Source: a virus
DNA length: 64,000 nucleotides
Reading direction: 5' to 3' (one strand)
IMG/VR virus record: IMGVR_UViG_3300030085_002431
Coordinates: 1-64,000 of that record
Within the stretch, counting starts at the first letter, position 1. Each line of letters opens with the position of its first letter. The notes under the pieces were generated by a model. It did not search any database, had not been told where the DNA came from, and worked only from the letters and a program-made list of their open reading frames with translations. The position numbers and the translations under genes are program-made. Below, one piece after another: positions 46,902-62,687 of this stretch.

Positions 46902-49900
46902 ATGGCAGACTTTAGACTTGGAAGACTAAAATTCAACTGGAGAGGTGACTGGGTAGCAGGAACCGCTTACGTCATCGATGACATCGTAAAGTTTGGTGCA
47001 AATACTTACGTCTGTACCACCAATCATACTTCCGTCACTGATGAAACTACCTGGTATACCACTGACCTAACAAAGTGGTCACTCCACACTGAAGGTATAA
47101 GAGATCGTGGCACTTGGTCAAGTGGTGTTTTTTACAAAATCAATGACCTTGTTACCTATGGAAATACTTCCTATCGTGTAACAACCGCATTTACCTCAAC
47201 AGCACCATTCTCAACAACTTATCTTGTTGAGTATCTCAGAGGATTTGAGTATGAAGATTCTTGGAATAGTTCAACTGAGTATCAGCAAGGTGATGTTGTA
47301 AACTATGGTGGTTATTCATACATTGCTACCAGCATTAATACAAATAAACCACCATCAGATTATCTCTCAGCAGATTGGGATGTAATTACAACAGGTTTTG
47401 ACGTAGTTGGTGCTTATAGTACTACTACAAACTACAAACCAGGTGATGTTGTTCAACGTGGTGGTTATGCTTACGTTGCAATCACAACTTCAATAAATGT
47501 AGAACCAACTCAAACTGGAAGTTGGGACCTTATTGTTAAGGGTATTGATTGGAAAGGTGCTTTCAGCACATCTACCACTTATCAATTGGGTGACGCAGTA
47601 AGTAGAAATAGTAATTCTTATATTAGTGTTGCATCAACTAACACTGGTAATGACCCAGCAACTGATGCTACTGGTGAATACTGGAATCCTCTAACTCAGG
47701 GTTCTGAAACCAATGTCATGACCACTGGTGGTGACATCATTTATCAGTCTGGTGCTGGTCCTACAAGATTACCAGTTGGTGCTGGTGGTTCAGTTCTTAC
47801 TGTTTCTAGTGCTGGATATCCACAATGGGAATCAAATAATGTAACTGATCCTGTTTATTATGTTGCAGAAGAGGGTAGTGATACCAATACTGGTGAAAAT
47901 ATTTCAAATGCATTTGCATCACTAGGTAAAGCACTATCGGTTGCAACTGGAAATGCAACAATTTATGTAAAAGCAGGTGATTACAACGAGACACTACCAC
48001 TAGTAGTGCCTTCTTCTGTAACTGTTGTTGGTGATAACATCAGAACAACAAAAATTAAAGCAGCTAGTGGAAGTGGAAACCACTGGGATATTGGATTAAA
48101 TATCGCAATTACTGATATTACTTTTGGTTCAGTTATTACCTTCTCAAATGGTGCTAGAGGAACATATATTGATTCCGATGCCCATGATAAAAATATTGAG
48201 ATTATCCGTAATATCAATTATCCAGCACCTTCACCATCAACAACAATAACCCACGTTGATAACGTACCATATAATACTAACGTTGTTACTGTAACAACAG
48301 CAGCAAATAGAACAAATGCACAATCCAAGATGTTCTTGGTTAGTGATAAGACAATGCTTAAAGACCTCCAGATGGAAGGTCTAACTGGATATCAAGTAGC
48401 AGGTACTGCATATTCGGCATCTGGTTCTATTAGTGGAACTACTCTAACTTCATCAAATCTAATTTCGGATTTGATTGGAACAACAGTTACTGGTTCTGGT
48501 GTTTCTGCAGCAACTAAAATTGTTAATGTTCTCAATTCAACCACTGCAGAAGTAAGTGTTTCCCAGACCGTTGGTTCTACTACACTTACATTTACTGCAC
48601 CTCCTCAGGACATTAATAATGCAACAGTTAGGGGTATCTTTGTTTCATTGAACCCTTCTACACCAATCACTAAGTCTCCTTACATCTCACAGTGTTCGGC
48701 ATTCTCAACTGCTGGCATGGGTGCGAAAGTTGATGGAAGAGTCCATAGAGCATTCCCACCAGGTAGTTCAACTCCTTCTAATAAGTCAATTGTTTTTGAC
48801 TCATTCACCAACATTCACGATGAGGGTGTTTCTTTCTGGGTTACTAACAATGGTGCTGCAGAATTCGTTTCTTGCTTCAGTTACTATGCTCATATTTCTT
48901 ATGCAGCAACTCGTGGTGGAAGAATCCGTTCACTCGCAGGTAACTCTTCTTGGGGAACTTATGGACTTGTAAGTTCTGGTTACAACGCAGATGAAGCTCC
49001 AGTAAATGGAGTTGTTGAAGGTCTTCAACTTAAGTTTGCTGCTTCTACAGTTACTGGTACAGGATTTGTTGAAGGTGGTAGAATTATTGGTAGTACTTCA
49101 GGTGCTCAAGGACATATTAATTCCTCACAATCTGAAAAACTAATCTATTCATTGATTTCTGCTGGACCTCTTGGTGTTGGTACTGGATTTGCAATGGGTG
49201 AAACCATTACTGCATCTAACGGAACAACAGCAACACTTCTTTCTAATACTGATGCTAACACTGGTATTAATGGATTTACATTCCCAATGTCTGGATTGCC
49301 ATCTACTTTAGAAGAAGGTGGTAGTGTTGAATTCATTACTGGTTCTGGTAATGGTGGTATTAATAATCAAACAGTTACTGGTGCTGACCAATTCACTTAT
49401 GTTGTTTCAAATGTAAGTTACAACGCACCAGATGGTAGAGGGGATTTAGCAGTTACTAGAGGAGCATTGGGTTCTGTTGCTGCTGGTCACACTGGTGGTA
49501 CAACATTCATCACTTCATATCCAGAAACTGGTACTACAGAAACACTATTGACTGCTGCTGCACCAAGTGATACAACAATTTTCGTTTCTAGTTCTTCTGG
49601 ATTCGTACAAAATGGATTTGCAAAAGTTGGTGATGAACTAATGCAAGTCACTAATATTCTTTCTAGTACTTCACTTGAAGTTACTAGAGCTGCACAAGGT
49701 TCTGGTTCTGCTGGTTCTTATAATTCAGGTGCTCCTGTTGTTTCTATTGGTCAATCTGTAGCAGTTTCTTCTGAGTTGTTTAAGGATACTGTAAGTGGTG
49801 ATACAACTCTTCGTGTAAAACCAACTACTGGATTTACAACATCAATGTACATCAAGATTGATTCTGAGTTTATTGATGTTAACTCAGTAACTGCAGATAG

Positions 49901-50432
49901 TCTTGGTCAATCTATCGTTGTTCTTGCTGAAGAAAAAGCAGCAAAGGCATATGATGGACAAGCAGTTAAGATTAGATTCCTGTATTCACAGGGAAGATTC
50001 ACAGGTCACGACTTCTTACAAGTTGGTACTGGTGGAACTTCAACAACAAATTGGCCTGGTATTCCTACACAGGATCCAGTACAAACACAGGAAGTTGTTG
50101 AAGATTTCCCAGGTCGTGTTTTCTACGTATCTGCTGACTCTAACGGTAACTTCCGTGTTGGTAAGTACTTTAAGGTTAATCAGGCAACTGGTTCTGCAAC
50201 CTTGAATGCTTCCGCATTCGACCTATCTGGTCTGACCTCCTTGAGACTTGGTTCAATTGGTGCTCAGTTGGGTGCTCAAATTAATGAGTTCTCAACAGAT
50301 ACTACACTTTCTCAGAACAGTAATGAGAAGGTTCCTACTCAGGCAGCAGTTAAGGCATACATCGACAATGCTGACGCATCTACCAAGAAGACCGCACAGA
50401 GTGAGGGTTACTTCTTCGGTAATAGCCTCTGA
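46902..50432 (+). CDS. Tail fibre with carbohydrate-binding-like repeats and beta-helix, 1,176 aa
   Basis: Residues about 14-260 contain five repeats of 'W/Y-x-x-x-x-x-Y-x-x-G/D-D-x-V-x-x-x-x-x-x-Y' (WVAGTAYVIDDIVKFGANTY, SSTEYQQGDVVNYGGYSYIA, TTNYKPGDVVQRGGYAYVAI). This is the layout of small CBM5/12-like chitin- or sugar-binding modules. From about residue 320 a pectate-lyase-like right-handed beta-helix begins (YYVAEEGSDTNTGENISNAF, ATIYVKAGDYNETLPLVVPS), running to about residue 760. It is followed by GxGY-free beta domains and a helical C-terminal tip (VPTQAAVKAYIDNADASTKK). No lyase catalytic residues can be assigned. It is probably a host-glycan-binding fibre. Confidence 0.75.
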   Translation: MADFRLGRLKFNWRGDWVAGTAYVIDDIVKFGANTYVCTTNHTSVTDETTWYTTDLTKWSLHTEGIRDRGTWSSGVFYKINDLVTYGNTSYRVTTAFTSTAPFSTTYLVEYLRGFEYEDSWNSSTEYQQGDVVNYGGYSYIATSINTNKPPSDYLSADWDVITTGFDVVGAYSTTTNYKPGDVVQRGGYAYVAITTSINVEPTQTGSWDLIVKGIDWKGAFSTSTTYQLGDAVSRNSNSYISVASTNTGNDPATDATGEYWNPLTQGSETNVMTTGGDIIYQSGAGPTRLPVGAGGSVLTVSSAGYPQWESNNVTDPVYYVAEEGSDTNTGENISNAFASLGKALSVATGNATIYVKAGDYNETLPLVVPSSVTVVGDNIRTTKIKAASGSGNHWDIGLNIAITDITFGSVITFSNGARGTYIDSDAHDKNIEIIRNINYPAPSPSTTITHVDNVPYNTNVVTVTTAANRTNAQSKMFLVSDKTMLKDLQMEGLTGYQVAGTAYSASGSISGTTLTSSNLISDLIGTTVTGSGVSAATKIVNVLNSTTAEVSVSQTVGSTTLTFTAPPQDINNATVRGIFVSLNPSTPITKSPYISQCSAFSTAGMGAKVDGRVHRAFPPGSSTPSNKSIVFDSFTNIHDEGVSFWVTNNGAAEFVSCFSYYAHISYAATRGGRIRSLAGNSSWGTYGLVSSGYNADEAPVNGVVEGLQLKFAASTVTGTGFVEGGRIIGSTSGAQGHINSSQSEKLIYSLISAGPLGVGTGFAMGETITASNGTTATLLSNTDANTGINGFTFPMSGLPSTLEEGGSVEFITGSGNGGINNQTVTGADQFTYVVSNVSYNAPDGRGDLAVTRGALGSVAAGHTGGTTFITSYPETGTTETLLTAAAPSDTTIFVSSSSGFVQNGFAKVGDELMQVTNILSSTSLEVTRAAQGSGSAGSYNSGAPVVSIGQSVAVSSELFKDTVSGDTTLRVKPTTGFTTSMYIKIDSEFIDVNSVTADSLGQSIVVLAEEKAAKAYDGQAVKIRFLYSQGRFTGHDFLQVGTGGTSTTNWPGIPTQDPVQTQEVVEDFPGRVFYVSADSNGNFRVGKYFKVNQATGSATLNASAFDLSGLTSLRLGSIGAQLGAQINEFSTDTTLSQNSNEKVPTQAAVKAYIDNADASTKKTAQSEGYFFGNSL

Positions 50433-51088: not shown

Positions 51089-52147
51089 GTGGCAGACGTA
51101 TTACTCTATAACTCATTAAACGATTCAAATAATGAGTATGCTAAAAGGTTGGATGACATTGATACCAACATGGCAGCAGAACAAGCTCGTGTTACTGCGG
51201 CTCAAACAAAATTAGATGTTGCTAATGCACAACTTGCTTCTGGTGGTGTAACTGGTAACTTCAGTCTTTGGTGTCTAATTCCAGAAGAGCCAGCAGATGG
51301 TTCTACATGGACTAGTGGAACAAGTTGTGGTTCTCTTAAGGTTTGTGATCAAACTGGATACTACCGTTGTGGTGCATCCTGTTCCTGGACAGTTCCAGCT
51401 GGTGCATCTTGTGCCAGATTCCAACTTTGGGGTGCTGGTGCTCCATCAGGAAGTAGTTGCTGTTGCGGTTTCTCTCCAATTGGTGGCAATGGTGCATATG
51501 CTTCTGTCATTATGTCAGTTACACCTGGAGACACATACACTCTATGTGCTGGTTGTGCATATTGTTGCTATGCAACAAGAAGTACATCAAATCAGGATGG
51601 ATGTCCTTCATACGTTCAGGGAAATGGACTTACTAACTTCTGTGCAGAAGGTGGTGAAGGAAATATCCAATGTGAAATGAAGACAAGGATGCAGGAAGGT
51701 AACCTCAATTCAGATTACTGTATGTACTTAGGTGCATGTATCTGTAATGGTGGTTCCGATACTTGCTATACGGGTGGACATACTTGCCAGATTGGTTGTA
51801 ACGATAACCAATGGTCTAATAAGTATGGATTCTTCCGTTCATGCAAAACATATTATGGAACATCAACTAGTGGAACTGTTTTTGGTATTAATGGTATGTT
51901 TAGTGCTATTTCTGCTGGTCACCGTGCATGTGTATATTATTGGTCAGCACCAGTTTATGGTTACCCAACTAACTCATGCTGCACAGGAGTATGGACTAGT
52001 GGTTGTGGTGGATGCGAACGTTCCGCACAGAGAGGATATCGTCAGATTCCAGGAGCAGGTGGATGGGGTAGCATGACAGACGGTGGTTGTAATACCGTTT
52101 GTGGTGATGCTGGAAGAATGGGCATGGTCTGTGTCACTTGGAAGTGA
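51089..52147 (+). CDS. Cysteine-rich adhesin-like protein A, 352 aa
   Basis: The start is GTG, preceded by GGAGG eight bases upstream; no in-frame ATG fits as well. Residues 1-50 are a charged helix, probably coiled coil. The rest is a glycine/cysteine-rich domain with about 31 cysteines. The segment CSWTVPAGASCARFQLWGAG aligns with Gly_rich_2-like fibre domains ('WTVPAGVTxVxVxLWGAGGG'), but with many Gly positions replaced by Cys, including a CCC and two CC pairs (SSCCCG, CAGCAYCC). The end, 'CGDAGRMGMVCVTWK', is shared with its paralogue at 52898. Disulfide cross-linking or metal binding is possible. It is probably a tip adhesin. Confidence 0.75.
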   Translation: MADVLLYNSLNDSNNEYAKRLDDIDTNMAAEQARVTAAQTKLDVANAQLASGGVTGNFSLWCLIPEEPADGSTWTSGTSCGSLKVCDQTGYYRCGASCSWTVPAGASCARFQLWGAGAPSGSSCCCGFSPIGGNGAYASVIMSVTPGDTYTLCAGCAYCCYATRSTSNQDGCPSYVQGNGLTNFCAEGGEGNIQCEMKTRMQEGNLNSDYCMYLGACICNGGSDTCYTGGHTCQIGCNDNQWSNKYGFFRSCKTYYGTSTSGTVFGINGMFSAISAGHRACVYYWSAPVYGYPTNSCCTGVWTSGCGGCERSAQRGYRQIPGAGGWGSMTDGGCNTVCGDAGRMGMVCVTWK

Positions 52148-52163
52148 TTTAATAGATATAGTT

Positions 52164-52171
52164 TATAAATA
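52164..52171 (+). promoter_or_regulatory. Late promoter (TATAAATA, perfect)
   Basis: A perfect T4 late octamer lies 43 bases before the ATG at 52215, in the 67-base gap after the first cysteine-rich gene. Confidence 0.7.
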
Positions 52172-52214
52172 ATCATACACAGAAGAATTTAGTTCAACAC
52201 AGGGGAAACTAACA

Positions 52215-52898
52215 ATGATAACGGAAAGTTTAACATATGCTGTTCCAGATGTTGCTTTTGTAGCAGGCATTTCTGGCAGTGTTACTCAAGACTTCCCATA
52301 TAATGGCCCAGAAAGCTTTTATGTGGAAATTGATGATGAGGGAGAAATCGTAAATATCGATGTTCCCTCAACACATAAAAATGCAATAGAGGTTACCTGG
52401 GCAGATAACCCAGAAATCTGTGCATTAGTTGGTCATTATTTTGTTGAAGATTGGAATGTAACACCTACTTTCGTCTCTGCTGATCTTGATGATGGATTTA
52501 CTCTTCCATCTGGTACTCCAACTACTTATCAAAAGAGAACTAATTATGAACTTGGTGACCTCTTCGAGGCCAAATATGATAGAGCAGCAGGAACCTGGTC
52601 AATGGAACAGATTGTCAAGCTAAAGGGTAGTCCTCTAATTGAAGAAGCAAAGAGAAGAAAGAGATATGTCAAGCAATATACTGACATGTTTGACTTTGCT
52701 GGTGATACTGGAACAGCAATTACTGCATTCCAAACAGCAATAGATAACTATCTTGCTGCTGCAGTATCAGTCCCTGTGTGGAACTATCTTCCTGAGCATT
52801 TTGCTCCTTACTTTGCTGATATCCCTAAAGTTCCTGCTCTTGCAGCAGCAGCATTTAAAGAACTTCCTGCAGATGAATCATTGGAGGCACTTAGCTGA
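52215..52898 (+). CDS. Protein of unknown function between the cysteine-rich paralogues, 227 aa
   Basis: A 227-residue acidic protein. Its N-terminal half is beta-type (VEIDDEGEIVNIDVPSTHKN, ICALVGHYFVEDWNVTPTFV). The centre has a basic helix (SPLIEEAKRRKRYVKQYTDM) and the end is alanine-rich helical (VPALAAAAFKELPADESLE). It has only one cysteine, in sharp contrast to the genes on both sides. It has its own late promoter and overlaps the start of the second cysteine-rich gene by one base (TGATG), so the two are probably made together. It could be a chaperone or partner of the adhesins. No family is recognised. Confidence 0.6.
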   Translation: MITESLTYAVPDVAFVAGISGSVTQDFPYNGPESFYVEIDDEGEIVNIDVPSTHKNAIEVTWADNPEICALVGHYFVEDWNVTPTFVSADLDDGFTLPSGTPTTYQKRTNYELGDLFEAKYDRAAGTWSMEQIVKLKGSPLIEEAKRRKRYVKQYTDMFDFAGDTGTAITAFQTAIDNYLAAAVSVPVWNYLPEHFAPYFADIPKVPALAAAAFKELPADESLEALS

Positions 52899-53941
52899 TG
52901 GACGTATTAGCATATAGCGCATTTAATAGAAGGGCAGAACTTGATGCCCAAGTAACAGCTAAAGAGGTTCAACTAGAAGCTCTTAGGCAGTGTGTCAGAG
53001 ACATTGATGCCCAAGTAACATCTAGAGAGGCAGCAGCAAGCTGGTTATCGAGTGGTGAGTATTCAATGCTCTGCTGTCCTCATAAATTTTCAGATTATGA
53101 AACTTTAATTGAAAATTACGAACTTTCTACTGAAAATAATGGATTTAAAGTTTGTAATACACAATCTCAATTTAACTGTGGTAATAGCTGTACTTGGACA
53201 GTTCCAGCTGGTGTAACTTGTGCCAGATTCCAACTTTGGGGTGCTGGTGGTGGTTCTGGATCTGGATGCTGCTGTGGTGGTTCACCATTTGGTTCATCTG
53301 CAGCATATGCAACAGTTTCTTTACCAGTCGTAGAAGGTTGTCAATATACAATTTGTTCTGGTTGTTCATATTGTTGCTTCCCCACTACTGGAACTTGTGG
53401 AAGACTTCCTGGTTGCCCATCCTACGTTCAGGGACACGGATTAACTAATTTCTGTGCAGATGGTGGTCAAGGAAGAATTGGAACCATGTTTGCAATGTAT
53501 GGTCACCGTTGCAGGTGCAGAATGCAGAACATTCAGTGTAATGATTCTGGTGGTTGTATCTGCAGTTTCGGTGCAGATTATTGCTTCGATAATTCCTGTG
53601 CATCTTGCGGTAAGATTGGATGCTTTATCCCTGGTGCTATGTACTTTGGTGCAGCACACTGTGGATCAGTTGTTAGGGGTGTCCGTGGCATGTGGCCTGA
53701 GATTTGCTACGATACAAACCACTACGGTTACGAAATGAGACCACCAATGTACGGTCTTCACTGCTGCCTCTGGTGTTTCCCTTATAGTAGTGGTTATTGC
53801 TGTGGTTGCGAGTGCTCAGCATCCCGTGGATGCCACCGATATCCAGGAATGGGTGGTTGGGCATCTCACACAATGAGTGGTGCTACTGGTATCTGTGGTG
53901 ATATGGGTAGAATGGGTATGGTTTGCATTACCTATTGCTGA
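52898..53941 (+). CDS. Cysteine-rich adhesin-like protein B, 347 aa
   Basis: A paralogue of the protein at 51089, and even richer in cysteine: about 40 of 347 residues. Residues 1-50 are helical with a duplicated 'LDAQVT/IDAQVT' motif. The core has CTWTVPAGVTCARFQLWGAG, then GSGCCCGGSPFG, CSGCSYCCFP and GCPSYVQGHGLTNFCADGGQ, each aligned with protein A. CRCRM, LHCCLWCF and GYCCGCECS add more clusters. The end, ICGDMGRMGMVCITYC, matches protein A except for the final Cys. It starts within the stop of the 227-residue gene. There is no signal peptide. Glycine-rich domains of this kind form phage fibre tips, so host recognition is the likely job. Confidence 0.75.
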   Translation: MDVLAYSAFNRRAELDAQVTAKEVQLEALRQCVRDIDAQVTSREAAASWLSSGEYSMLCCPHKFSDYETLIENYELSTENNGFKVCNTQSQFNCGNSCTWTVPAGVTCARFQLWGAGGGSGSGCCCGGSPFGSSAAYATVSLPVVEGCQYTICSGCSYCCFPTTGTCGRLPGCPSYVQGHGLTNFCADGGQGRIGTMFAMYGHRCRCRMQNIQCNDSGGCICSFGADYCFDNSCASCGKIGCFIPGAMYFGAAHCGSVVRGVRGMWPEICYDTNHYGYEMRPPMYGLHCCLWCFPYSSGYCCGCECSASRGCHRYPGMGGWASHTMSGATGICGDMGRMGMVCITYC

Positions 53942-53962: not shown

Positions 53963-53970
53963 TATAAATA
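53963..53970 (+). promoter_or_regulatory. Late promoter (TATAAATA, perfect)
   Basis: A perfect T4 late octamer lies 42 bases before the GT9 gene at 54013, in the gap after cysteine-rich protein B. It could drive the whole glycan cassette to 61911, whose genes follow with gaps of 12 bases or less. Confidence 0.7.
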
Positions 53971-54012: not shown

Positions 54013-55107
54013 ATGGAGAAAGCATTTTTCATCAATGGTGGAGCAGGGAGAGTTCTCTGCTCCATTCCTGCGCTTGAGCATTATGCGGAAACACATGATG
54101 ACTTTGTAATTGTTGCAGAGTCATGGGGAGAGTTTTATGCAATGAGTCCAAAGCTCAGAGAAAAAGCATTTCCAATTCATCATAAGGGACTATTTAAGGA
54201 CCACCTTAGGGATAAAGAAATCATATCACCAGAACCATATCGTTTGAATGCTTATTTCAATCAAAAAGCAAATTTGATTCAAGCATTTGATATTCTCATA
54301 AATGGTGAAACTGAAGTTCCACCTACAAAAAAATTATCATTAGATATTAATAAAAAAGACCAAATTGTTGGTCATAATATGATTCAGGAAGTCAAAGAGA
54401 CCTTAAAGAAAGATAAAGTAATTGTATTTCAACCTTTTGGAAGCACTGTAGAGGTGCAAGGTAATTTTATAATTGACAGTAGTGGAAGAAGTTTTGAACT
54501 TTCTAATGTAGTTGAAATAATTAAAGAACTACAAAAAGATTATGGTATAATTATTATGTCTCAAGTTCCTATTCCAGGATGGGAACAAATGGGAGTTGCA
54601 TACCCTAAAGATGTAAGTCTTCTTCAGTGGGCAGGAATTATTAATGCTGCTGATTATTTTCTTGGATGTGACAGTGTTGGTCAACACTTGGCACATGCTG
54701 TAGGGAAACCAGCAACAGTTGTTATTGGGTCAACATTTCCAGAAAACATAACATATCCTGATAATAAGGATTTCAATGTTATCGATTTGGGGTTAAACAA
54801 AAGGTTATATAGTCCAATTAGAATGGTCTTTGATGATACTTCAGACAGAGTAAATGAATCCCTAATGGTAATGAATGAATCTGTTCTTAAAAAAATTAAA
54901 AAAGCAATTAAGGATAAGATTGGAGTAAGTAAAAAAACGGTGATTCCGCAACTTTCTCCTAATACTGATAATACACCATTACCCGTCCTTCCTGGAAAAA
55001 AAGCATCAGTAAAATCATCAACGAACGGATTTTCCCTTCCAGGAAAGCAAATAAATAAAAAGAAACCAATTGATGAAATTCTGGAATTAAACGAAATTAA
55101 AAATTGA
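54013..55107 (+). CDS. Glycosyltransferase family 9 (heptosyltransferase-like), 364 aa
   Basis: The N-terminal domain starts with INGGAGRVLCSIPALEHYAE, the GT9 'G-G-x-G-x-x-(L)-x-x-x-PAL' motif. The C-terminal donor-binding half has VIVFQPFGS, then DVSLLQWAGIINAADYFLGC, DSVGQHLAHAVGKPATVVIG and STFPENI, matching the 'D-(S/T)-x-x-x-H-x-A-A-x-x-x-P-x-x-x-(L/I)-(F/Y)-G-x-T' signature of ADP-heptose:LPS heptosyltransferases. The last 60 residues are a Pro/Lys/Ser-rich tail with LPGKK and LPGKQ. The ATG at 54013 was preferred over a TTG at 53998 because GGAG lies nine bases before it. It probably transfers a heptose-like sugar. The acceptor (virion protein or host glycan) is unknown. Confidence 0.75.
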   Translation: MEKAFFINGGAGRVLCSIPALEHYAETHDDFVIVAESWGEFYAMSPKLREKAFPIHHKGLFKDHLRDKEIISPEPYRLNAYFNQKANLIQAFDILINGETEVPPTKKLSLDINKKDQIVGHNMIQEVKETLKKDKVIVFQPFGSTVEVQGNFIIDSSGRSFELSNVVEIIKELQKDYGIIIMSQVPIPGWEQMGVAYPKDVSLLQWAGIINAADYFLGCDSVGQHLAHAVGKPATVVIGSTFPENITYPDNKDFNVIDLGLNKRLYSPIRMVFDDTSDRVNESLMVMNESVLKKIKKAIKDKIGVSKKTVIPQLSPNTDNTPLPVLPGKKASVKSSTNGFSLPGKQINKKKPIDEILELNEIKN

Positions 55108-55118
55108 GGTGAATTTTA

Positions 55119-56822
55119 ATGAGTACTATTGTTGCGTGTAATCGTGGGCATAACTCCGCCACGACGTTAGTTATTGATGGGGAAGTAAAGTTTTATATCG
55201 AAGAAGAACGTCTAACCAGAAGGAAGTATGATGGTGCTCCTTTGGCAGGACTATTGAAGGTATTTGATTATGTTGATGAAGTAGACCATCTTATTGTTTG
55301 TCATACGCATAGAGACGGTCCAAAACTGGACTGGACTAGGGAAGATGTATATGTTGGATTCATCCGAAAGATGATGAAAAACAAACCTTTCCAAGTTCAT
55401 TATGTTGATGAAATTCACCATGAGTTACATGCTGCTTGTGCATTTATTAACTCTGGATTTGAAACTGCTGCATGTTTAAGTGTTGATGGTGCTGGTAGTT
55501 TCCTTAAGAGTGATGCTTTTTCAGAGACAGGATATGAATTTGAAACAATTTTCAGAGCATCATATCCATTACAATTTGAGCAAGTTTATCAACATATCGG
55601 AACTCACTCTCGTGTTGGAATGTTACGTTTGGAGGATACTGAAAATAATTCAACTACAGTAGTAACTGAATATCCAGGTATCACAAAAGCATACGAAGCA
55701 ATCACTGATTACTGCGGTTTTACTTCTATTGAAGCAGGTAAAACCATGGGTCTTTCCCCTTATGGAAGAGAGAATCCTGATATTCCACCTTTTATTACTC
55801 ATGATGGGTGGGTAGATAGGTCAGTATTTACACCAACTTTCCCTAATGGTTCAGTGGTCAATAAAGAAAGATTTGATGCTATTAGAGAGGATTCCAATAT
55901 TCATGAAAAGGGTTCATATACTCAGTTCCAAAAAGATATGGCATATAAAATTCAGAGAGAATCTGAAAAGTATATGTTTAATTTAATCAGAAAAGCACAT
56001 GAGTTGACTGGTGAAACAAACTTTTGTATTGCTGGTGGATTTGGTCTAAATTGTGTTGCAAACTATAAGTATTGGAAAGAATTTCCCGATTTTAACATTT
56101 ATTGTGAACCAATTTCTCATGATGGGGGAACTCCTCTTGGTGCAGCAAAAATGTTGCATCTTAGAGAGATTGATTCATATGAACCACCTGCACCTACTAC
56201 TTCTATATACTATGGTCCACAATACGATCCAGCAACTTATGAGAGTGATTTAGTTGGTCTTGATGTTAAAGATACTTCATATGATGATGTTGCAAAATTA
56301 ATTCGTGAAGGTAATATCGTAACCATTTTTCAAGGCAGGTCTGAGGGTGGTCCTAGAGCACTTGGGAATCGTTCTATCCTATTTGACCCAACTATTCCTG
56401 ATGGAAAAGACATTGTTAATCGTGTGAAAAGGAGAGAATTCTTTAGACCATTTGCTTGCTCTATTAAGAAAGAAGCAGCTTGTGATTGGTTTGACCTTGC
56501 TGGTCGTGAGGAAACACCACATATGATGTATGCTGTAGATGCCCTCCCTGGTGTTGCAGAGAAAGTTCCTTCCGTCATCCATGTGGATGGAACATGTAGA
56601 ATTCAAACTGTTACTCCAGAACAGAATGAGCACTACTATAATCTCATTGATGCTTTTGAAAAATTAAGTGAAGTTCCTATTCTCTTCAATACTTCTTTCA
56701 ATCTTGGTGGTGACCCTCTAGTAGAAACAATTGAAGATGCAGTAAACACATTAAACAAGAGTGATATTGAGTATCTTTATCTCCCAGAAATTCAAAAACT
56801 TGTATACATTCCCAACATTTGA
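55119..56822 (+). CDS. NodU/TobZ-family carbamoyltransferase, copy 1, 567 aa
   Basis: This family carbamoylates sugar hydroxyls from carbamoyl phosphate through a carbamoyl-adenylate. Key motifs are present: GHNSATTLV near residue 10 (usually GHDA), EEERLTRRKY (28-37), the metal-site block HHELHAACAF (100-109), SVDGAG (D123), KTMGLSPYG, IAGGFGLNCVAN, PISHDGGTPLGAA (D335), GGPRALGNRSI (410-420) and REFFRPFACS. The end has NTSFNLGGDPLVETIEDAV. It has full family length. It is the first of three tandem copies, following the GT9 gene by 11 bases, with a GAGGTG ribosome binding site. It probably acts on the sugar made by the cassette. Confidence 0.9.
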   Translation: MSTIVACNRGHNSATTLVIDGEVKFYIEEERLTRRKYDGAPLAGLLKVFDYVDEVDHLIVCHTHRDGPKLDWTREDVYVGFIRKMMKNKPFQVHYVDEIHHELHAACAFINSGFETAACLSVDGAGSFLKSDAFSETGYEFETIFRASYPLQFEQVYQHIGTHSRVGMLRLEDTENNSTTVVTEYPGITKAYEAITDYCGFTSIEAGKTMGLSPYGRENPDIPPFITHDGWVDRSVFTPTFPNGSVVNKERFDAIREDSNIHEKGSYTQFQKDMAYKIQRESEKYMFNLIRKAHELTGETNFCIAGGFGLNCVANYKYWKEFPDFNIYCEPISHDGGTPLGAAKMLHLREIDSYEPPAPTTSIYYGPQYDPATYESDLVGLDVKDTSYDDVAKLIREGNIVTIFQGRSEGGPRALGNRSILFDPTIPDGKDIVNRVKRREFFRPFACSIKKEAACDWFDLAGREETPHMMYAVDALPGVAEKVPSVIHVDGTCRIQTVTPEQNEHYYNLIDAFEKLSEVPILFNTSFNLGGDPLVETIEDAVNTLNKSDIEYLYLPEIQKLVYIPNI

Positions 56823-56834
56823 TTTTAAAAAATT

Positions 56835-58499
56835 ATGGATAACGAAAAATTCTATCAATTGACATATAATACTAGTGGAACTGCTTCTGCAGTTTTAACT
56901 AAAAATGATACTGTAGACAAGGTTTATATTGAAGAGAGATTTACAAACATGAAGGATAATATTCCTTTAATTTGTCTCAAAGATATTGCTCATGGAAAAT
57001 GCATTTCTCATATGGGAATAACATCAAACGATGATTATTCTGGAAACGAGTGGGCAGTACTAACTAAATTCTTCTCAATTTATAGTGGAAGTACTAGTAA
57101 AGAAAACAGCCAAATTGTAACTCATCAGGAATCTCATTATCTACAATCTCTATCTGCATCACTAAATTCTGGTTTTACAGAACCCCATGTTTTTTGCTTT
57201 ACTAAACCAGGAGCACAGTCTGAGTATGGTAAACCCCATGAAAGTATCTTTTTGATGAATCCAAAAAGAGGAGTTTGTCAACTTGCATTTCGACAAGTTT
57301 TAGGTCCAAATGTTCGAGTTAAGAGAGAAGAAGGCGTTCCAGAAGCATATTACAACAGAAAAACATTTTCTATTTGCAATGCATTTGAATCTATTAAAGA
57401 ATTTACAAATTGTTCAACACTTAAGGAGATGTATGCTGTTGGGCAGTTAGGAACTGATGATAAGATGATTCCTAGCATTCTATCCAAGTGTGGTGCTCAG
57501 ACTTCTCAATTTAAATTAGATGGGAAAAAGCAAATATTCAATGAATATGAATATATTAAGGAAGTAAGTGATGGTAAAAAGAAAAGAGATATTTCTTTAA
57601 ATCTAGTATATCGAATTCAAAAGGATTATGAACGTTATTTGATTGATGCTGTTAATGAATATTTCAGCAGCCAGACTAGAGATGTAGCATCAACGTCAAG
57701 GGAATTAATCATTACTGGAACACTTAACGATAATGTAAGAGCAAATTACTTATTGCTAAAATCTTTAGATGATGATTTTACTCTATATGTTGATCCGATT
57801 TCTAATGAAGTTAGTAATAGTATGGGACTCGCATATGAACTTATAGGTTCTTGTGAGATGGCACCTAAAGGAGTTGATAATTTTTATCTTGGTAGAGAAC
57901 TAGATCCAACTGATTACAATCTACTTGAGCAAGAAGATGAAAAAACTGTAACACCAAAAGAAGTTGCTGAGTTAATTGCAGACGGAAATGTTGTTGCTAT
58001 TGCTCAGGGACGTTCTGAAATAACAGACCATGCTCTTGGAAATCGTTCTATTGTTGCAGACCCAAGAACTATTGAATCTAAACAAATCTTAAGTAGGTCT
58101 AAGTATCAACCAGATCATATTCCATGTATTACATCCGTCCTGGAAGAAAGTGCTAGTGATTGGTTTGACATGGATAAATTGAAGAGTAGTCCAGAAGCAA
58201 TGTATGCAGTTGATGCTCTGGATGTTACTAAAGAACAAGCACAGGGTGCAGTCTATACCGATGGATCAACTAGAGTACAAACTGTTAATGAAGGATATAA
58301 TCAGAATTACTACAATTTAATTAAAGAATTTGGTGATTTGACTGGTGTTCCAATGCTTCTTAATACGTCTCTTAATATGCATACATATCCAATGTGTGAT
58401 AATATGGAAAATATTATGTCATTTATGAGATGCTCTGGAGTAAACTATTTGTATCTTCCAGAAACTGGAAAACTATTGTTTGTGCCTACTGATTCTTAA
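56835..58499 (+). CDS. Degenerate NodU-family carbamoyltransferase, copy 2, 554 aa
   Basis: It aligns along its whole length with the copies on both sides, including QGRSE, HALGNRSIVADPR, YAVDALD, TRVQTVNEGYNQNYYNLIKE and the LNTS ending. Active-site motifs are eroded. The N-terminal H(D/N)AS motif is gone (TSGTASAVL). HxxxH of the metal site remains (H97, H101), but the VDGAG Asp is lost (CFTKPGAQ, 121-128), as is the second Asp (PISNEVSNSMG, 321-331). GGPRALGNRS has become ITDHALGNRS (396-405), losing the Arg, and FFRPFA has become YQPDHIP. The frame is intact, so it is not a simple pseudogene. It is perhaps a regulatory or structural subunit for copies 1 and 3. Confidence 0.8.
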   Translation: MDNEKFYQLTYNTSGTASAVLTKNDTVDKVYIEERFTNMKDNIPLICLKDIAHGKCISHMGITSNDDYSGNEWAVLTKFFSIYSGSTSKENSQIVTHQESHYLQSLSASLNSGFTEPHVFCFTKPGAQSEYGKPHESIFLMNPKRGVCQLAFRQVLGPNVRVKREEGVPEAYYNRKTFSICNAFESIKEFTNCSTLKEMYAVGQLGTDDKMIPSILSKCGAQTSQFKLDGKKQIFNEYEYIKEVSDGKKKRDISLNLVYRIQKDYERYLIDAVNEYFSSQTRDVASTSRELIITGTLNDNVRANYLLLKSLDDDFTLYVDPISNEVSNSMGLAYELIGSCEMAPKGVDNFYLGRELDPTDYNLLEQEDEKTVTPKEVAELIADGNVVAIAQGRSEITDHALGNRSIVADPRTIESKQILSRSKYQPDHIPCITSVLEESASDWFDMDKLKSSPEAMYAVDALDVTKEQAQGAVYTDGSTRVQTVNEGYNQNYYNLIKEFGDLTGVPMLLNTSLNMHTYPMCDNMENIMSFMRCSGVNYLYLPETGKLLFVPTDS

Positions 58500-58501
58500 T
58501 A

Positions 58502-60124
58502 ATGTATATCTTATCCATACATGAATCTCATGATGCAAGTATGGCTCTTATTAAAGATGGGGAGGTTTTAATTAACCTCTCCCATGAAAGATTAAGTCAT
58601 ATAAAGCATGATAGGAGAATTAATTTATTTGCTTCAAAAATAAAACAGTATACAAATTATGTTGATAAGGTTGTTGTAAGTTGTCTTCATAATTCTATAA
58701 AAGAAGTTGATTTTCCACTTTATGCAAACTATTGTGGAATTGATTTTGGTGAGATAGTTGACTATTCTCCGTTTCATCACATATCACATTCATATTTGGC
58801 ATTCAAACATTCAAATTTTGAGAATGCTATTAGTGTTGTTCTTGATGGTGCAGGTTCTGAAAAACCAGAAGTACAGTATCATGGTGTTGCACTCAAAGAA
58901 TGCGAGTCCGCCTATCAAATAAATCCACATATGACTGCTTGCATTTATAAATCATATGTTGGTCAAAGATCTGAAAATTTTGAATTTCCATATGAAGTTG
59001 GTGGAATTGACAGAAGAATTGGTATTGGAATGGCATATAGTGGAATCACAGAGGCTCTTGGATATGGAGAAAATGAAGATGGTAAGACTATGGGATTATC
59101 TGCATATGCATCAGAAGAGCAAATAAATTCTATTCCAAAATTGGTAGAGTTAAGTCATGGTGCTGATGGAAATAAATTTAAGTTATTTCGTGGTGGTGTT
59201 TTAGGATATTGTTCAGCACTTATTGATATACCAAAAGAATTACATGTTGAATATGCTGGAAGAATTCAAAGGGACTTTGAGGAGTATGTTATTCAGTTAG
59301 TTCATGGTATTGTTCAAAAAACAGGGTGTAGGAATATTGTTTTATCTGGTGGTTGTTTCCTTAATTGTGTAGCAAATTTTAAACTAAGAAAATCACTACC
59401 CCCCGAATTTAATATATTTGTCGAACCAATGTCTGGTGATGATGGTATTGCACTAGCTAATGCTTTCATGGTTGATGATATGATCAACCCAAAGAATAGA
59501 AAACTGAATACATTATATCTTGGTAGTCAGTTGGAATATGAGTATACTTTAAGTGATGGAGAGTCTGAAGTAGTAACTACACCAAAAGAAGTAGCACAAT
59601 TAATTTCTGAAGGAAATTGTATTGCTATTGCTCAGGGACGTTCTGAGAGTGGTCCTAGAGCATTGGGTAATCGATCTATATTGTTTGACCCAAGAGATAA
59701 AGATGGTAAGGATAAGGTAAATAAAATTAAAAAGAGAGAATACTTCAGACCCTTTGCTGCTACAGTTCTTCATGAGAATAGTCAACAGTGGTTTGACATG
59801 GATAGTCTTGATGAAAGTCCATACATGACTTATGCTGTAGATGTACTACCAGACAAATCTAAGACAATACCTGCTGTAACACATGTCAATAATACATGTA
59901 GAATACAAACTCTTAAACAGGAACAAAATAAAAACTATTACGAATTAATAAATGAGTTTTATAAGTTGACAGATGTTCCTATGGTATTAAACACTTCATT
60001 CAATCTTGCTGGTGATACTATGGTTGAAACAATAGAGGATGCTTTAAAAACACTAAGACTTAGTGAATTGGAGTATCTTTACTTACCAGAAACTAAAAAA
60101 CTTATTCATGTCCCCAACAAATGA
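58502..60124 (+). CDS. NodU/TobZ-family carbamoyltransferase, copy 3, 540 aa
   Basis: The motif set is intact: IHESHDASMALIKDG (H10, D11), HERLSHIKHD, the metal-site block HHISHSYLAF (92-101), VLDGAGS (D115), KTMGLSAYA, LSGGCFLNCVANF, EPMSGDDGIALANA (D313/D314), SGPRALGNRSILFDPR (383-398), and REYFRPFAA. Of the three it keeps the most canonical N-terminus (HDAS). It follows copy 2 by two bases and overlaps the next gene by four (ATGA), so it belongs to one operon with the heptose genes. The active enzyme probably places a carbamoyl group on a sugar hydroxyl. Which sugar is not shown by sequence. Confidence 0.9.
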   Translation: MYILSIHESHDASMALIKDGEVLINLSHERLSHIKHDRRINLFASKIKQYTNYVDKVVVSCLHNSIKEVDFPLYANYCGIDFGEIVDYSPFHHISHSYLAFKHSNFENAISVVLDGAGSEKPEVQYHGVALKECESAYQINPHMTACIYKSYVGQRSENFEFPYEVGGIDRRIGIGMAYSGITEALGYGENEDGKTMGLSAYASEEQINSIPKLVELSHGADGNKFKLFRGGVLGYCSALIDIPKELHVEYAGRIQRDFEEYVIQLVHGIVQKTGCRNIVLSGGCFLNCVANFKLRKSLPPEFNIFVEPMSGDDGIALANAFMVDDMINPKNRKLNTLYLGSQLEYEYTLSDGESEVVTTPKEVAQLISEGNCIAIAQGRSESGPRALGNRSILFDPRDKDGKDKVNKIKKREYFRPFAATVLHENSQQWFDMDSLDESPYMTYAVDVLPDKSKTIPAVTHVNNTCRIQTLKQEQNKNYYELINEFYKLTDVPMVLNTSFNLAGDTMVETIEDALKTLRLSELEYLYLPETKKLIHVPNK

Positions 60125-60519
60125 AAATATCTTTTGTCAATGGTTGTTTTGATGTATTACATCCAGGACACGTTGAACTTTTAAATTATGCTAGTTCTTT
60201 TGGTGATTACTTAATTGTTGCTATTGACTCAGATAGAAAAGTGGCAGAGATGAAAGGTCCAGACAGACCGATATTCTCTCAATCTGATAGGGCATATATG
60301 CTAAAAGAAATAAGATGTGTTGATGTAGTACATATTTTTGATACTAGACAAGAACTAGAGTCTTTGCTAGATTCATTGAGACCTGATACAATGGTCGTAG
60401 GTTCAGACTGGAAAGGAAAAGAAGTAGTAGGTTCACAGTATGCCAAATCAGTCAAATTCTTCGACAGAATCGGAGACTACTCAACAACAAAAACAATTCA
60501 AGGTTCTTCTTATCGGTGA
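60121..60519 (+). CDS. rfaE2: RfaE2-type nucleotidyltransferase (heptose-1-phosphate adenylyltransferase-like), 132 aa
   Basis: A small cytidylyltransferase-fold protein with the GCFDVLHPGH motif (H14-x2-H17), VAIDSDRKV, and the RfaE2-like middle: KGPDRPIFSQSDRAYML, then CVDVVHIFD. LRPDTMVVGSDW and VVGSQYAK follow, and it ends in YSTTKTIQ. In HldE-type proteins this domain converts heptose-1-phosphate plus ATP to ADP-heptose. TagD-type glycerol-3-phosphate cytidylyltransferases have the same fold and length. RfaE2 is preferred because of 'RPI-x4-DRA', the VVGS block and the neighbouring kinase and HldD genes. It overlaps copy 3 by four bases and the kinase by 80 bases in another frame. Confidence 0.75.
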   Translation: MKISFVNGCFDVLHPGHVELLNYASSFGDYLIVAIDSDRKVAEMKGPDRPIFSQSDRAYMLKEIRCVDVVHIFDTRQELESLLDSLRPDTMVVGSDWKGKEVVGSQYAKSVKFFDRIGDYSTTKTIQGSSYR

Positions 60520-61237
60520 TAGTTGCGAAGACGAGTACATTTATGGTACTTGTAAACGTATAAGTCCAGAAGCACCAGTTCCTATTATGGACTATTCCAG
60601 ACTGGAAACAAAATCTGGAATGGCAGGTAACGTATGTTTGAACTTACAGTCATTTGAAATGGACATAACGTTCTTAACTAACTCTGAGAAATTGGTTAAG
60701 ACACGATTTATTGATGAAAAGTCAAATCAGCAAATTCTTAGAGTTGATAATGAAGAGACTGTAAAACCGTTATTACTTCCAATTAGCACCGAAGGTTTTG
60801 ATGCAGTTGTAATTTCAGATTATAACAAAGGATATCTAAGTTATTCTAAAATTGAAGAAATAGTTTCTGGTTCCACATGCCCAGTGTTTATTGACAGTAA
60901 AAAAAGATTTTTACCTAACAAAGAAAATTGTTTTGTAAAAATAAATGACTTAGAGTATAGTCAATTGGATGAAAAGTGTCATATTGATAACTTAATTGTC
61001 ACTAAGGGTGCTGAGGGATGTTATTATAGAAATACTTTGTATCCAGCACAGAAAGTAAATGTTTATGATGTTGTCGGTGCAGGAGATACCTTTTTGGCAG
61101 CACTAGTTTTTAGTTATCTTGCTAGAGGTGATATGAGTGAATCAATTCGTTTTGCAAATAAAGCAGCAGCAGTTGTTGTTGGTCAACCAGGTACATATGT
61201 TTTACAGGAGGAAGATATAAATGAGATATGTAGTTGA
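60440..61237 (+). CDS. rfaE1: RfaE1/HldE-type PfkB sugar kinase, 265 aa
   Basis: It matches the kinase domain of HldE, which phosphorylates heptose-7-phosphate at C1. The N-terminal block KVLLIGDSCEDEYIYGTCKR, then ISPEAPVPI, corresponds to 'VLVVGDVMLD-x-Y-x-x-G-x-x-x-R-I-SPEAPVPV'. SDYNKGYLS and the PfkB signature DVVGAGDTFLAAL (catalytic D216) follow. It is shorter than the usual domain of about 310 residues. The only reasonable start (60440) lies 80 bases inside the RfaE2 gene, so residues 1-26 are encoded in an overlapping frame. In bacterial HldE the kinase is N-terminal and fused; here the order is reversed and the domains are separate. The HAD gene starts within its 3' end. Confidence 0.8.
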   Translation: MPNQSNSSTESETTQQQKQFKVLLIGDSCEDEYIYGTCKRISPEAPVPIMDYSRLETKSGMAGNVCLNLQSFEMDITFLTNSEKLVKTRFIDEKSNQQILRVDNEETVKPLLLPISTEGFDAVVISDYNKGYLSYSKIEEIVSGSTCPVFIDSKKRFLPNKENCFVKINDLEYSQLDEKCHIDNLIVTKGAEGCYYRNTLYPAQKVNVYDVVGAGDTFLAALVFSYLARGDMSESIRFANKAAAVVVGQPGTYVLQEEDINEICS

Positions 61238-61550
61238 TATTGATGCAACCATTTGTACCCCAGGTACATGTGAAGCATGTAGATATGAAGGTTCCACACC
61301 AATTCAAGATAGGATTGATAAAATAAATAAGTTGTATGATGATGGGCATATCATCAAATACTTTACTGCCCGAGGCATGGGAAGGTATAATGATGATGCG
61401 GAAAAGGCACGGGAAAAATTTTACGGACTAACCAAAATGCAATTAGATATTTGGGGATGTAAGTATCATGAACTTATTCTCGGAAAACCATCAGCAGACT
61501 ATTACATAGATGACAAAGCTGTAAATTCAGATGACTTCTTCAAGACCTAG
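61221..61550 (+). CDS. EcbF/BcbF-type HAD phosphatase, 109 aa
   Basis: A small HAD-fold protein. Motif I is VVDIDATIC (D6-x-D8-x-T10). Motif II lies in KYFTARGMGR. Motifs III/IV are in LGKPSADYYIDDKAVN. The sequence between, DRIDKINKLYDDGHIIKYFT and then QLDIWGCKYHEL, is characteristic of the capsule-biosynthesis phosphatases EcbF/BcbF. An AGGAGG nine bases before the ATG, inside the kinase gene, makes this start firm. In a heptose pathway a HAD enzyme (GmhB) removes the C7 phosphate of heptose bisphosphate. This protein could fill that step, but it is not a close match to GmhB. It overlaps the cupin gene by 20 bases. Confidence 0.7.
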   Translation: MRYVVDIDATICTPGTCEACRYEGSTPIQDRIDKINKLYDDGHIIKYFTARGMGRYNDDAEKAREKFYGLTKMQLDIWGCKYHELILGKPSADYYIDDKAVNSDDFFKT

Positions 61551-61911
61551 AGCAGGACAGGACATCAAATTCGTACCTAAGGGGTGGGGATTTGAAAAAT
61601 GGATTGTAAACTGTGAGCAATACTGCGGAAAACTTTTGTATATTGCTAAGGGAAAAAAGTGTTCATGGCACTACCACAATAAAAAAGATGAAGTTTTTTA
61701 TGTTCAAAGTGGTAAGATTAAAATTAAGTATGGTTGGTCAGACAATCAAGAATTAGGTTCCATAGCAATTTTGGAACGTGGTGATAAGTTTCACGTTCCA
61801 ATTGGTATGAGACATCAGATGTATGGTATGGAAGACACCGAACTGTTTGAGTTCAGTACAGAGCACTTTGACTCTGATAGTATTCGTGTCATCCCAGGAG
61901 ATACTCTTTGA
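61531..61911 (+). CDS. Cupin-domain sugar-pathway protein, 126 aa
   Basis: A single cupin domain with the metal-binding set H47-x-H49-x4-E54 (CSWHYHNKKDEVFYV) and H95 (VPIGMRHQMYG). The block WGFEKWIVNCEQYCGKLLYI and the KGKKCSWHYH motif resemble cupins linked to mannose-6-phosphate isomerase or nucleotide-sugar clusters, including phage ones. It may isomerise or epimerise a sugar phosphate or bind a sugar nucleotide; no specific reaction can be named. Its start lies within the HAD gene. Its 3' end overlaps the end of hldD on the other strand by 23 bases, and no terminator lies between. Confidence 0.75.
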   Translation: MTSSRPRAGQDIKFVPKGWGFEKWIVNCEQYCGKLLYIAKGKKCSWHYHNKKDEVFYVQSGKIKIKYGWSDNQELGSIAILERGDKFHVPIGMRHQMYGMEDTELFEFSTEHFDSDSIRVIPGDTL

Positions 61912-62680
61912 CAGTTTTAAACTTACGGTTGCCCCATTCTTTTTGGGCACAAGTATAAATTTGATATTTACCTTTTAAATGGTCGGGGAATGGAATGTAT
62001 TCTATATCTCCACCATATTTTTTTATGCAGCATTCCGCTACGTGCTGGAAACTTACTGGGGCACTAGTTCCAAGGTCATAGATTCCTGAACCTTTTTTAT
62101 TATCCAGGACAACTTTAACAATGTCATCAACACAAATAAAGTCCCTTAGGAAGTCTTGAGAACCTTCAAATAATTTTAGTTTTCCAGTCTCTTCTATTTC
62201 TTTAGCAAATTTACTTACTGGACTTGCTTGGTTTCCTTTATCATTCTCACCATCACCATAGACATTGAAGTAACGGAATCCTTGAATTAATGGAAATCTA
62301 TCCATATTATCTTGAACCCAATAATCTGTTGTTACTTTGGATAATGCGTAGTAATTGAGTGGGTTGATAATTCCTTGTTCATTACCATAAACAGAAGCAG
62401 ATGAAGCATACTTAACTGGAATTTCATGTTTTGCTGCTTGCTCAAACAACCACTCACTAAATTCAATATTGAATGTAAATATTTGCTTTAAGTTTGTATT
62501 TGTAGTAGAGGACATGGCACCTTGGTGGATAATGCATTCTACTTCTTTCCACCTATAGAAATTTTTTCTCCAATGCCAACTATTGTTCTTCTCTACTTCT
62601 ATTACTTCTTTACCTTTTTTCTTTAGGGCGGCAAGAAATTTCTTTCCAATGAATCCCTTAGAACCAGTTAATATAATCAT
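61889..62680 (-). CDS. hldD: ADP-L-glycero-D-manno-heptose 6-epimerase-like (HldD), 263 aa
   Basis: An extended short-chain dehydrogenase with the Rossmann motif LTGSKGFIG (G6, G9, G12) and the catalytic pair Y111-x3-K115 (NYYALSK). HldD-specific blocks are IIHQGAMSSTT, KYASSASVYGNEQG, GFRYFNVYG, LFEGSQDFLRDFICVDDI, IYDLGTSAPVSFQHVAE and IEYIPFPDHLKGKYQIYTCA. It is about 45 residues shorter than E. coli HldD (310). It would convert ADP-D-glycero- to ADP-L-glycero-manno-heptose, the last step of the nucleotide sugar pathway. It is the only clear reverse-strand gene in the window and runs tail to tail with the cupin. Its start overlaps the late promoter of the downstream fibre. Confidence 0.85.
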   Translation of the reverse strand: MIILTGSKGFIGKKFLAALKKKGKEVIEVEKNNSWHWRKNFYRWKEVECIIHQGAMSSTTNTNLKQIFTFNIEFSEWLFEQAAKHEIPVKYASSASVYGNEQGIINPLNYYALSKVTTDYWVQDNMDRFPLIQGFRYFNVYGDGENDKGNQASPVSKFAKEIEETGKLKLFEGSQDFLRDFICVDDIVKVVLDNKKGSGIYDLGTSAPVSFQHVAECCIKKYGGDIEYIPFPDHLKGKYQIYTCAQKEWGNRKFKTVKEYLLG

Positions 62681-62687
62681 ATAAATA
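62680..62687 (+). promoter_or_regulatory. Late promoter (TATAAATA, perfect)
   Basis: A perfect T4 late octamer lies 29 bases before the fibre start at 62717. Its first base coincides with the first base of the reverse-strand hldD start codon, so the two divergent genes share a 36-base control region. Confidence 0.7.

Follow-up and report, generated by a model that had tools for sequence, protein, structure and literature searches.

The first 64,000 nucleotides of IMGVR_UViG_3300030085_002431, a 250,613-base record with a virus classification, are here called the window. They contain at 54013-62680 a cassette of nine open reading frames flanked by two Gly/Cys-rich putative adhesins (51089-53941) on one side and by a fibre-type gene, starting at 62718, on the other, and the question that arises is what sugar a phage of ocean cyanobacteria would make within its tail-fibre region and to what it would attach it. 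Comparison of the nine products (P0001 to P0009; Table 1) with characterized enzymes and with related loci suggests a viral pathway that leads from sedoheptulose 7-phosphate (S7P) to ADP-heptose and puts (carbamoylated) heptose on tail adhesins, a reading that, taken as a whole, appears reasonably probable. Its entry step is assigned to the cupin P0008, which is predicted to act in place of the S7P isomerase GmhA.

Profile searches gave the same gene families as the initial annotation, which had been made from the sequence alone: HldD, the kinase, the nucleotidyltransferase, an EcbF/BcbF-type HAD protein, a cupin and NodU-type carbamoyltransferases. P0009 matches the HldD profile TIGR02197 (1.6e-62) with 211.5 bits, the cut-off of 274.6 not being reached by this shorter protein, the next unrelated family being galE with 39 bits; its match in the PDB is HldD (1eq2, 2.6e-41). 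The catalytic residues of HldD, Ser116, Tyr140, Lys144, and Lys178 (E. coli numbering), correspond to Ser94, Tyr111, Lys115, and Lys148 of P0009 and are kept in 99-102 of 102 relatives. P0006 matches TIGR02198 (rfaE domain I; 8.9e-46) with 156 bits as compared with 52 for ribokinase and HldA in the PDB (4e84, 4.6e-17); it is about 50 residues shorter than the TIGR02198 model and does not reach its curated cut-off, but the catalytic GAGD motif is present, with Asp216 invariant in 97 of 97 sequences. P0005 scores 119.8 bits with TIGR02199 (7.8e-35) and 63.5 bits with glycerol-3-phosphate cytidylyltransferase, and its assignment as TagD was rejected because of the higher score with the heptose family. 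The view that these genes constitute a heptose pathway is thus supported, since heptose families, rather than ribokinase or TagD, give the highest scores with the kinase and the nucleotidyltransferase, and the Ser, Tyr, Lys, and Lys of HldD are retained, and the cassette very probably encodes such a pathway. The remaining enzyme of this group, P0007, does not match the GmhB-type HAD phosphatases, which have about 180 residues in the archaeal operons described below, but matches EcbF/BcbF (TIGR01689, 4.7e-9; PDB relatives 9iqw and 1xpj), and its HAD motifs are intact (Asp6, Asp8, Thr49, Lys89, and Asp98, invariant in 79 of 79). It should be noted that PHROG 1238 and 7851 carry the label "phosphoheptose isomerase" for the HAD family and "cysteine dioxygenase" for the cupin; both labels look wrong. 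The former was rejected for P0007 because the protein is a HAD, and the latter for P0008 because in the structural comparison cysteine dioxygenase folds came after the lyxose isomerases.

It had been noted initially that GmhA is missing from the window, and profile searches with PF13580 and TIGR00441 confirmed this for the entire 250,613-base record. TIGR00441 was added because PF13580 alone is not fully sensitive: a divergent SIS protein of phage SynMITS9220M01 falls below the PF13580 cut-off (E 3.3e-4) and is detected by TIGR00441. PF13580 had no match in 50 phage records that contain the kinase or HldD, nine of which are complete isolate genomes. It does not follow, as was first supposed, that this step must be provided by the host or from elsewhere in the genome, since the cupin within the cassette is the likely isomerase. 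P0008 does not have the SIS fold of GmhA, and the proposed similarity is one of function only. The cupin profile matches D-lyxose isomerases in the PDB (2y0o, 4.6e-7; 7nzo, 1e-5) alongside oxalate decarboxylases and other cupins, and D-lyxose isomerases are also the best PDB matches (6.8e-10 and 8.2e-10) of an AlphaFold model of P0008 with a mean predicted local distance difference test (pLDDT) score of 92.9. D-Lyxose isomerases interconvert ketoses and lyxo/manno aldoses, which is the chemistry needed for the conversion of S7P to manno-heptose 7-phosphate. The residues of 7nzo that contact sugar and metal are Lys62, His75, His77, Lys86, Glu88, His143, Glu156, and Asp163 (PMC8378251); the first seven have counterparts in P0008 (Lys34, His47, His49, Lys52, Glu54, His95, and Glu107) that are the same in all 94 phage cupins compared, and Asp163 aligns with Asp114, the invariant residue being Asp116. 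P0008 thus has the HxH..E..H metal site together with the Lys, Lys, Glu, and Asp sugar contacts of a cupin isomerase, without being put forward as a lyxose isomerase itself.

The cupin gene adjoins those for kinase and nucleotidyltransferase in 122 of the 131 phage loci that contain these two, and 31 of the 35 annotated phage records that contain the cupin were also recovered in the kinase search. The phages Bellamy and SynMITS9220M01 have a cupin gene that overlaps those for the GDP-heptose kinase HddA (7e-83 and 3e-85) and an HddC-like guanylyltransferase, which places the cupin step before the branch point between ADP- and GDP-heptose. Isomerization of S7P is the step that is common to both branches and not otherwise assigned, and for this reason it is attributed to the cupin. 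SynMITS9220M01 also has a second cluster (locus L270, 10923-14002) with an HddA-like kinase, a divergent GmhA-like SIS protein (47 bits with TIGR00441), a HAD-nucleotidyltransferase fusion, and an epimerase; this cluster has no cupin, so that there is apparently one isomerase per cluster. On these grounds P0008 is likely to be an S7P isomerase. No prior report of such a cupin was found in the literature searched, the coverage of which excluded subscription papers.

The replacement of GmhA by the cupin in cells, which is comparative evidence, is the strongest new result of this work. A scan of cellular genomes for the cupin family identified DPANN archaea and one bacterium of the Candidate Phyla Radiation (CPR) with a compact cupin-HldD-HldA-GmhB-HldC operon, the genes of which usually overlap and often have a GT9 (glycosyltransferase family 9) gene upstream. 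Related archaea have the order GmhA-HldD-HldA-(GmhB-HldC), so that, in a comparison of five loci of one kind with three of the other, the first gene alone differs. Of 47 genomes from that archaeal phylum in which a strong HldC-type domain was recognized, the cupin alone occurs in 15, GmhA alone in 26, both in 1, and neither in 5; the Fisher p value of 2.8e-7 (3.3e-6 after removal of three genomes that were identified by way of the cupin) is indicative and overstates independence because the genomes are often incomplete and are phylogenetically related. The cupin is also found in in-frame fusions to HldD (one locus), to the kinase (three loci), and between GmhB and HldC (one locus). Two archaeal genomes that have the cupin operon also contain a separate heptose cluster, in which the gene for a SIS_2 protein adjoins those for a transaldolase and a kinase of the GHMP (HddA-like) type. 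The phage itself encodes a transaldolase, an S7P-using enzyme, at 217083-217718 (PF00923, 6.1e-55), which may compete for or tune the S7P pool that feeds the cassette.

The same cassette, with its order kept and HldD on the opposite strand, is conserved in marine cyanophages, being present in the isolates P-SSM2, S-SSM7, S-CAM1, S-CAM3, and Sf-FS3 as well as in dozens of IMG/VR contigs, and the gene arrangement is therefore not a product of chance. In a second arrangement, GTx (the P0001 family), carbamoyltransferase, and adhesin are missing and HldD is encoded on the same strand; it forms part of lipopolysaccharide (LPS)-like clusters, which were seen in S-SM2, in P-TIM68, and in many contigs, and a comparable LPS-like cluster in S-T4 and Sf-CH8 has no recognized HldD. 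Previously, Sullivan et al. (2010, PMC3037559) found the T4-GC clusters 304, 305, 307, and 308 to co-occur and left it as a question whether these genes have a function or represent "stuffer DNA". GC307, the cupin, has been annotated as a cysteine dioxygenase or nucleotidyltransferase and GC306, the HAD protein, as a phosphoheptose isomerase. The cassette itself is therefore already known, as distinct from its function. The S-SSM7 cassette contains a tryptophan halogenase gene (L005, 15511-16998), and in S-SM2 transketolase-like and aldolase genes lie beside the heptose genes (L006, 9422-10630).

A transferase of the GT9 type had been proposed for P0001. Its own match to PF01075 is weak (E 0.0019; 18.0 bits with a cut-off of 22), but 29 of 31 members of its family match this profile (best 1.8e-7), and Foldseek comparison of an AlphaFold model (pLDDT 85.9) gave as best hits WaaF (1psw, 6.6e-10), WaaC (2.4e-9), TibC (6.8e-8), and a Veillonella GT9 protein. 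The GTx profile found only noise among PDB sequences, the relationship being visible by structure. The heptosyltransferase fold of the original proposal is thus supported, and P0001 is, as judged from the predicted structure, a distant heptosyltransferase of the GT9/TibC fold. A cysteine-bound iron finger is a feature of the TibC/BAHT adhesin heptosyltransferases; alignment of the P0001 family showed no conserved cysteine cluster, with Cys219 alone being near-invariant, and membership in TibC/BAHT was rejected on this account.

Relatives of GTx were collected through the kinase and HldD scans, a related-locus search with P0001 alone having given none. Adhesin or fibre families are present in the flank of 50 of 56 GTx loci, whereas none of 48 LPS-type loci has GTx, carbamoyltransferase, or adhesin. 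In two unrelated phages, the Vibrio phage D505 and the Aeromonas phage HJ05, GTx homologues likewise have tail-fibre genes on one side and tail or sheath genes on the other; Vibrio and Aeromonas phages were not named in the kinase or HldD searches, and there the ADP-heptose would come from the host. Heptose and 3-deoxy-D-manno-octulosonic acid (KDO) are reported to be absent from cyanobacterial LPS cores (PMC4390846). The virion tail is favored as acceptor because of the linkage of GTx to tail genes, the Vibrio and Aeromonas cases, the reported absence of heptose from cyanobacterial LPS, and the small number of GmhA-like genes in hosts. Decoration of the virion as a likelier use than modification of the host surface is also supported, and a virion adhesin appears somewhat more probable than not as the acceptor. 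Genes for 2-oxoglutarate-Fe(II) oxygenases (prolyl-hydroxylase-like) lie in or beside the cassette in P-SSM2 (L004, 18795-19292 and 22435-23025), S-SSM7 (L005, 13390-13857 and 19766-20380), and Sf-FS3 (L009, several), and it is conceivable that they hydroxylate an acceptor residue or the sugar.

Of the three NodU-type carbamoyltransferases originally recognized, all belong to the family, but not all three can be counted as active. P0002 (PF16861, 3.7e-57; PF02543, 1.7e-23) and P0004 (PF16861, 2.6e-60, with PF02543; PDB relatives the NovN-type 9s2t, GdmN, and TobZ) have both Carbam_trans domains and the conserved metal and catalytic motifs. P0003 deviates at 40 of 96 near-invariant columns, the largest number in any other of 58 relatives being 5, and has lost His93, His96, Asp115, Asp313, Gly-Pro-Arg384-386, Arg412, and Arg416, the changes affecting ligands of the metal as well as both the GPRALGNR and the RPFA motif; it is a probable pseudoenzyme. 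That carbamoyl-heptose is the product can be put forward only tentatively.

In the pathway proposed, S7P, an intermediate of the Calvin and pentose-phosphate cycles of the host, would enter a nearly self-contained viral route to ADP-heptose and its transfer. P0008 would isomerize S7P to D-glycero-D-manno-heptose 7-phosphate in place of GmhA, P0006 would phosphorylate C1, the small HAD protein P0007 would remove the phosphate from C7 in place of GmhB, P0005 would add the nucleotide, and P0009 would epimerize ADP-D,D-heptose to ADP-L,D-heptose. P0001 would then transfer the heptose, the likeliest acceptors being the Gly/Cys-rich tail adhesins whose genes lie directly upstream, and P0002 and P0004 would carbamoylate the sugar; P0003, probably catalytically dead, may have a structural role. 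The family memberships and active-site conservation behind the first five steps, the replacement of GmhA, and the linkage of P0001 to tail genes come from comparison; we infer which substrates are used, at what point carbamoylation occurs, and what the acceptor is. The full statement, that a previously unrecognized cupin class of S7P isomerases in cyanophages, DPANN archaea, and some CPR bacteria completes a phage ADP-heptose pathway whose carbamoylated product decorates virion tail adhesins, is offered as a possibility of slightly less than even weight.

Several of the observations count against this interpretation and have to be set against those that favor it. Cupins are functionally diverse, the structural scores of KdgF, CapF, and oxalate decarboxylases with P0008 are nearly as good as those of the lyxose isomerases, and in some genomes a related cupin has no heptose genes nearby (loci L164 to L172, among which the "Prochlorococcus" locus L167, with RecA-like and structural-type genes and no heptose genes, looks like a phage contig and is for that reason uninformative on the host chromosome). 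Seven freshwater contigs encode kinase, nucleotidyltransferase, and HldD with no recognized cupin or GmhA and so manage without a recognized isomerase, and GmhA-like proteins (SIS proteins of GmhA size) are present in about 29 of 151 host-family genomes, so that the host could sometimes supply the step; the relatedness of the archaeal genomes noted above belongs here as well. P0008 could then have another task, such as tailoring, sugar epimerization, or regulation, with heptose 7-phosphate coming from host GmhA, but this is made distinctly unlikely by the archaeal cupin that stands precisely where GmhA otherwise stands in the operon and hardly ever occurs together with it, by the fusions of the cupin to each of the other enzymes and its pairing with both ADP- and GDP-heptose enzymes, by active-site residues that match ketol isomerases, and by the lack of GmhA in most host-family genomes.

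With respect to the acceptor, the evidence is gene neighborhood only, and a P0001 that lacks the TibC cysteine cluster is not a demonstrated adhesin heptosyltransferase. The same pathway might instead modify the LPS or capsule of the host during infection, for example to block superinfection, its position among tail-fibre genes being incidental: the five-gene core, or most of it, is found in the LPS-like clusters of S-SM2, S-T4, P-TIM68, and Sf-CH8, which have multiple glycosyltransferases, published authors class such genes as LPS genes (PMC3037559; PMC9602691), and LPS is the usual target of GT9 enzymes. This appears rather unlikely, however, for a tail-type cassette that contains just one glycosyltransferase and lacks both flippase and polymerase, whose GTx is confined to the tail setting and recurs among tail genes in Vibrio and Aeromonas phages, which is preceded by a late-promoter-like site, and whose hosts are cyanobacteria with LPS cores reported to lack heptose and KDO. 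ADP-heptose is a known soluble alarm signal, and the product could accordingly be a free metabolite (sink or signal) or serve in nucleic-acid modification in place of being a glycan donor; this is very improbable in view of the GT9-fold transferase that constantly accompanies the tail-type cassette and of genes that are late-type, tail-linked, and outside any DNA-modification cluster. The possibility raised earlier (PMC3037559) that such genes are nonfunctional cargo filling a large headful genome might draw on the degeneration of P0003, but it is scarcely tenable when the other catalytic residues (those of HldD, cupin, and kinase, at the frequencies given above) are retained even between distant phages, the order of the genes is kept, and the genes overlap. 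Decoration of tail adhesins by a viral heptose pathway continues to be preferred.

None of the nine reading frames is interrupted, and all nine are nearly contiguous, the gaps in the plus-strand operon being 11, 12, 2, -4, -80, -17, and -20 nucleotides, with the HldD and cupin genes overlapping tail to tail. Homologues of adhA are located upstream of GTx in relatives too. The T4-type late-promoter-like site TATAAATA occurs 5 times in the window, which is at the level of chance (5.9 expected), but 4 of the 5 copies fall within the 2.3% of the window that is intergenic, 38-53 nucleotides ahead of a start; it is the placement of these sites, and not their number, that is telling, and the copy ahead of GTx suggests that the cassette is a late operon. 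Elsewhere in the window (46902-50432) there is a large protein of the fibre type in which CBM_5_12 carbohydrate-binding modules are repeated.

Table 1. Genes and sites of the cassette and its surroundings (positions in the window)
Feature	Position	Strand	Assignment
GTx (P0001)	54013..55107	+	GT9-like heptosyltransferase, family phrog_8954; predicted heptose transfer
Cb1 (P0002)	55119..56822	+	Intact NodU-type O-carbamoyltransferase; PF16861 + PF02543
Cb2 (P0003)	56835..58499	+	NodU-type fold, catalytic motifs lost, probable pseudoenzyme; PF16861 only
Cb3 (P0004)	58502..60124	+	Intact NodU-type O-carbamoyltransferase; PF16861 + PF02543
NT (P0005)	60121..60519	+	HldC-type heptose-1-phosphate nucleotidyltransferase; TIGR02199
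KIN (P0006)	60440..61237	+	Short HldA-type heptose-7-phosphate kinase; PfkB kinase; TIGR02198
HAD (P0007)	61221..61550	+	Small EcbF/BcbF-like phosphatase, proposed GmhB role; TIGR01689
CUP (P0008)	61531..61911	+	Cupin (Cupin_2), proposed S7P isomerase in place of GmhA
HLD (P0009)	61889..62680	-	ADP-heptose 6-epimerase HldD; TIGR02197
adhA	51089..52147	+	Gly/Cys-rich putative tail adhesin, candidate acceptor; phrog_35878 4.9e-90
adhM	52215..52898	+	Small conserved protein between both adhesins; homologues likewise placed in relatives
adhB	52898..53941	+	Gly/Cys-rich putative tail adhesin, adhA paralogue, candidate acceptor; phrog_35878 2.1e-84; weak Gly_rich_2 PF21722
Late-promoter-like site TATAAATA	53963..53970	+	T4-type; 50 nucleotides before GTx
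Late-promoter-like site TATAAATA	62680..62687	+	38 nucleotides before downstream fibre gene (start 62718)

The present analysis proposes a function for a gene set that was published in 2010 as possible "stuffer DNA" and a candidate for the first step that it lacked. A second class of enzyme for entry into heptose synthesis, not related to the first, is thereby predicted for viruses and for archaea that lack GmhA. The analysis also corrects the misannotation of the HAD and cupin families in phage databases. If the tail adhesins do carry heptose, cyanophages would use S7P of the Calvin cycle to dress their host-recognition apparatus, linking phage carbon metabolism and host recognition.

The components of the cassette can each be compared with known systems. 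The "LPS gene" clusters of P-SSM2, S-SM2, and S-SSM7 (PMC3037559) consist of the same genes, which were left unexplained there. P0002 and P0004 share both domains and the conserved motifs with the O-carbamoyltransferases NodU, TobZ, NovN, and GdmN, whereas P0003 is without the motifs. With TibC, which glycosylates autotransporter adhesins, P0001 shares the GT-B fold, a heptose donor, and a neighboring adhesin as presumed acceptor, but its family lacks the conserved cysteine cluster of the iron finger and its acceptor is presumed from linkage. The cupin D-lyxose/D-mannose isomerases, B. subtilis YdaE (2y0o) and Thermofilum TsLI (7nzo), are the best structural matches of P0008 and have the metal and sugar residues in the same order, but P0008 has 126 residues as compared with about 170-180, is about 20% identical, lies among heptose genes, and is predicted to act on S7P. 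In the bacterial ADP-L-glycero-D-manno-heptose pathway (GmhA, HldE or HldA plus HldC, GmhB, and HldD, with WaaC and WaaF), the kinase, the nucleotidyltransferase, and the epimerase are homologous to those of the phage, the active sites being conserved, and the transferase has the same fold. In contrast, the phage set has a cupin for GmhA, a small EcbF/BcbF-like HAD protein for GmhB, and a shortened kinase, and it is viral, situated beside tail genes, and accompanied by carbamoyltransferases.

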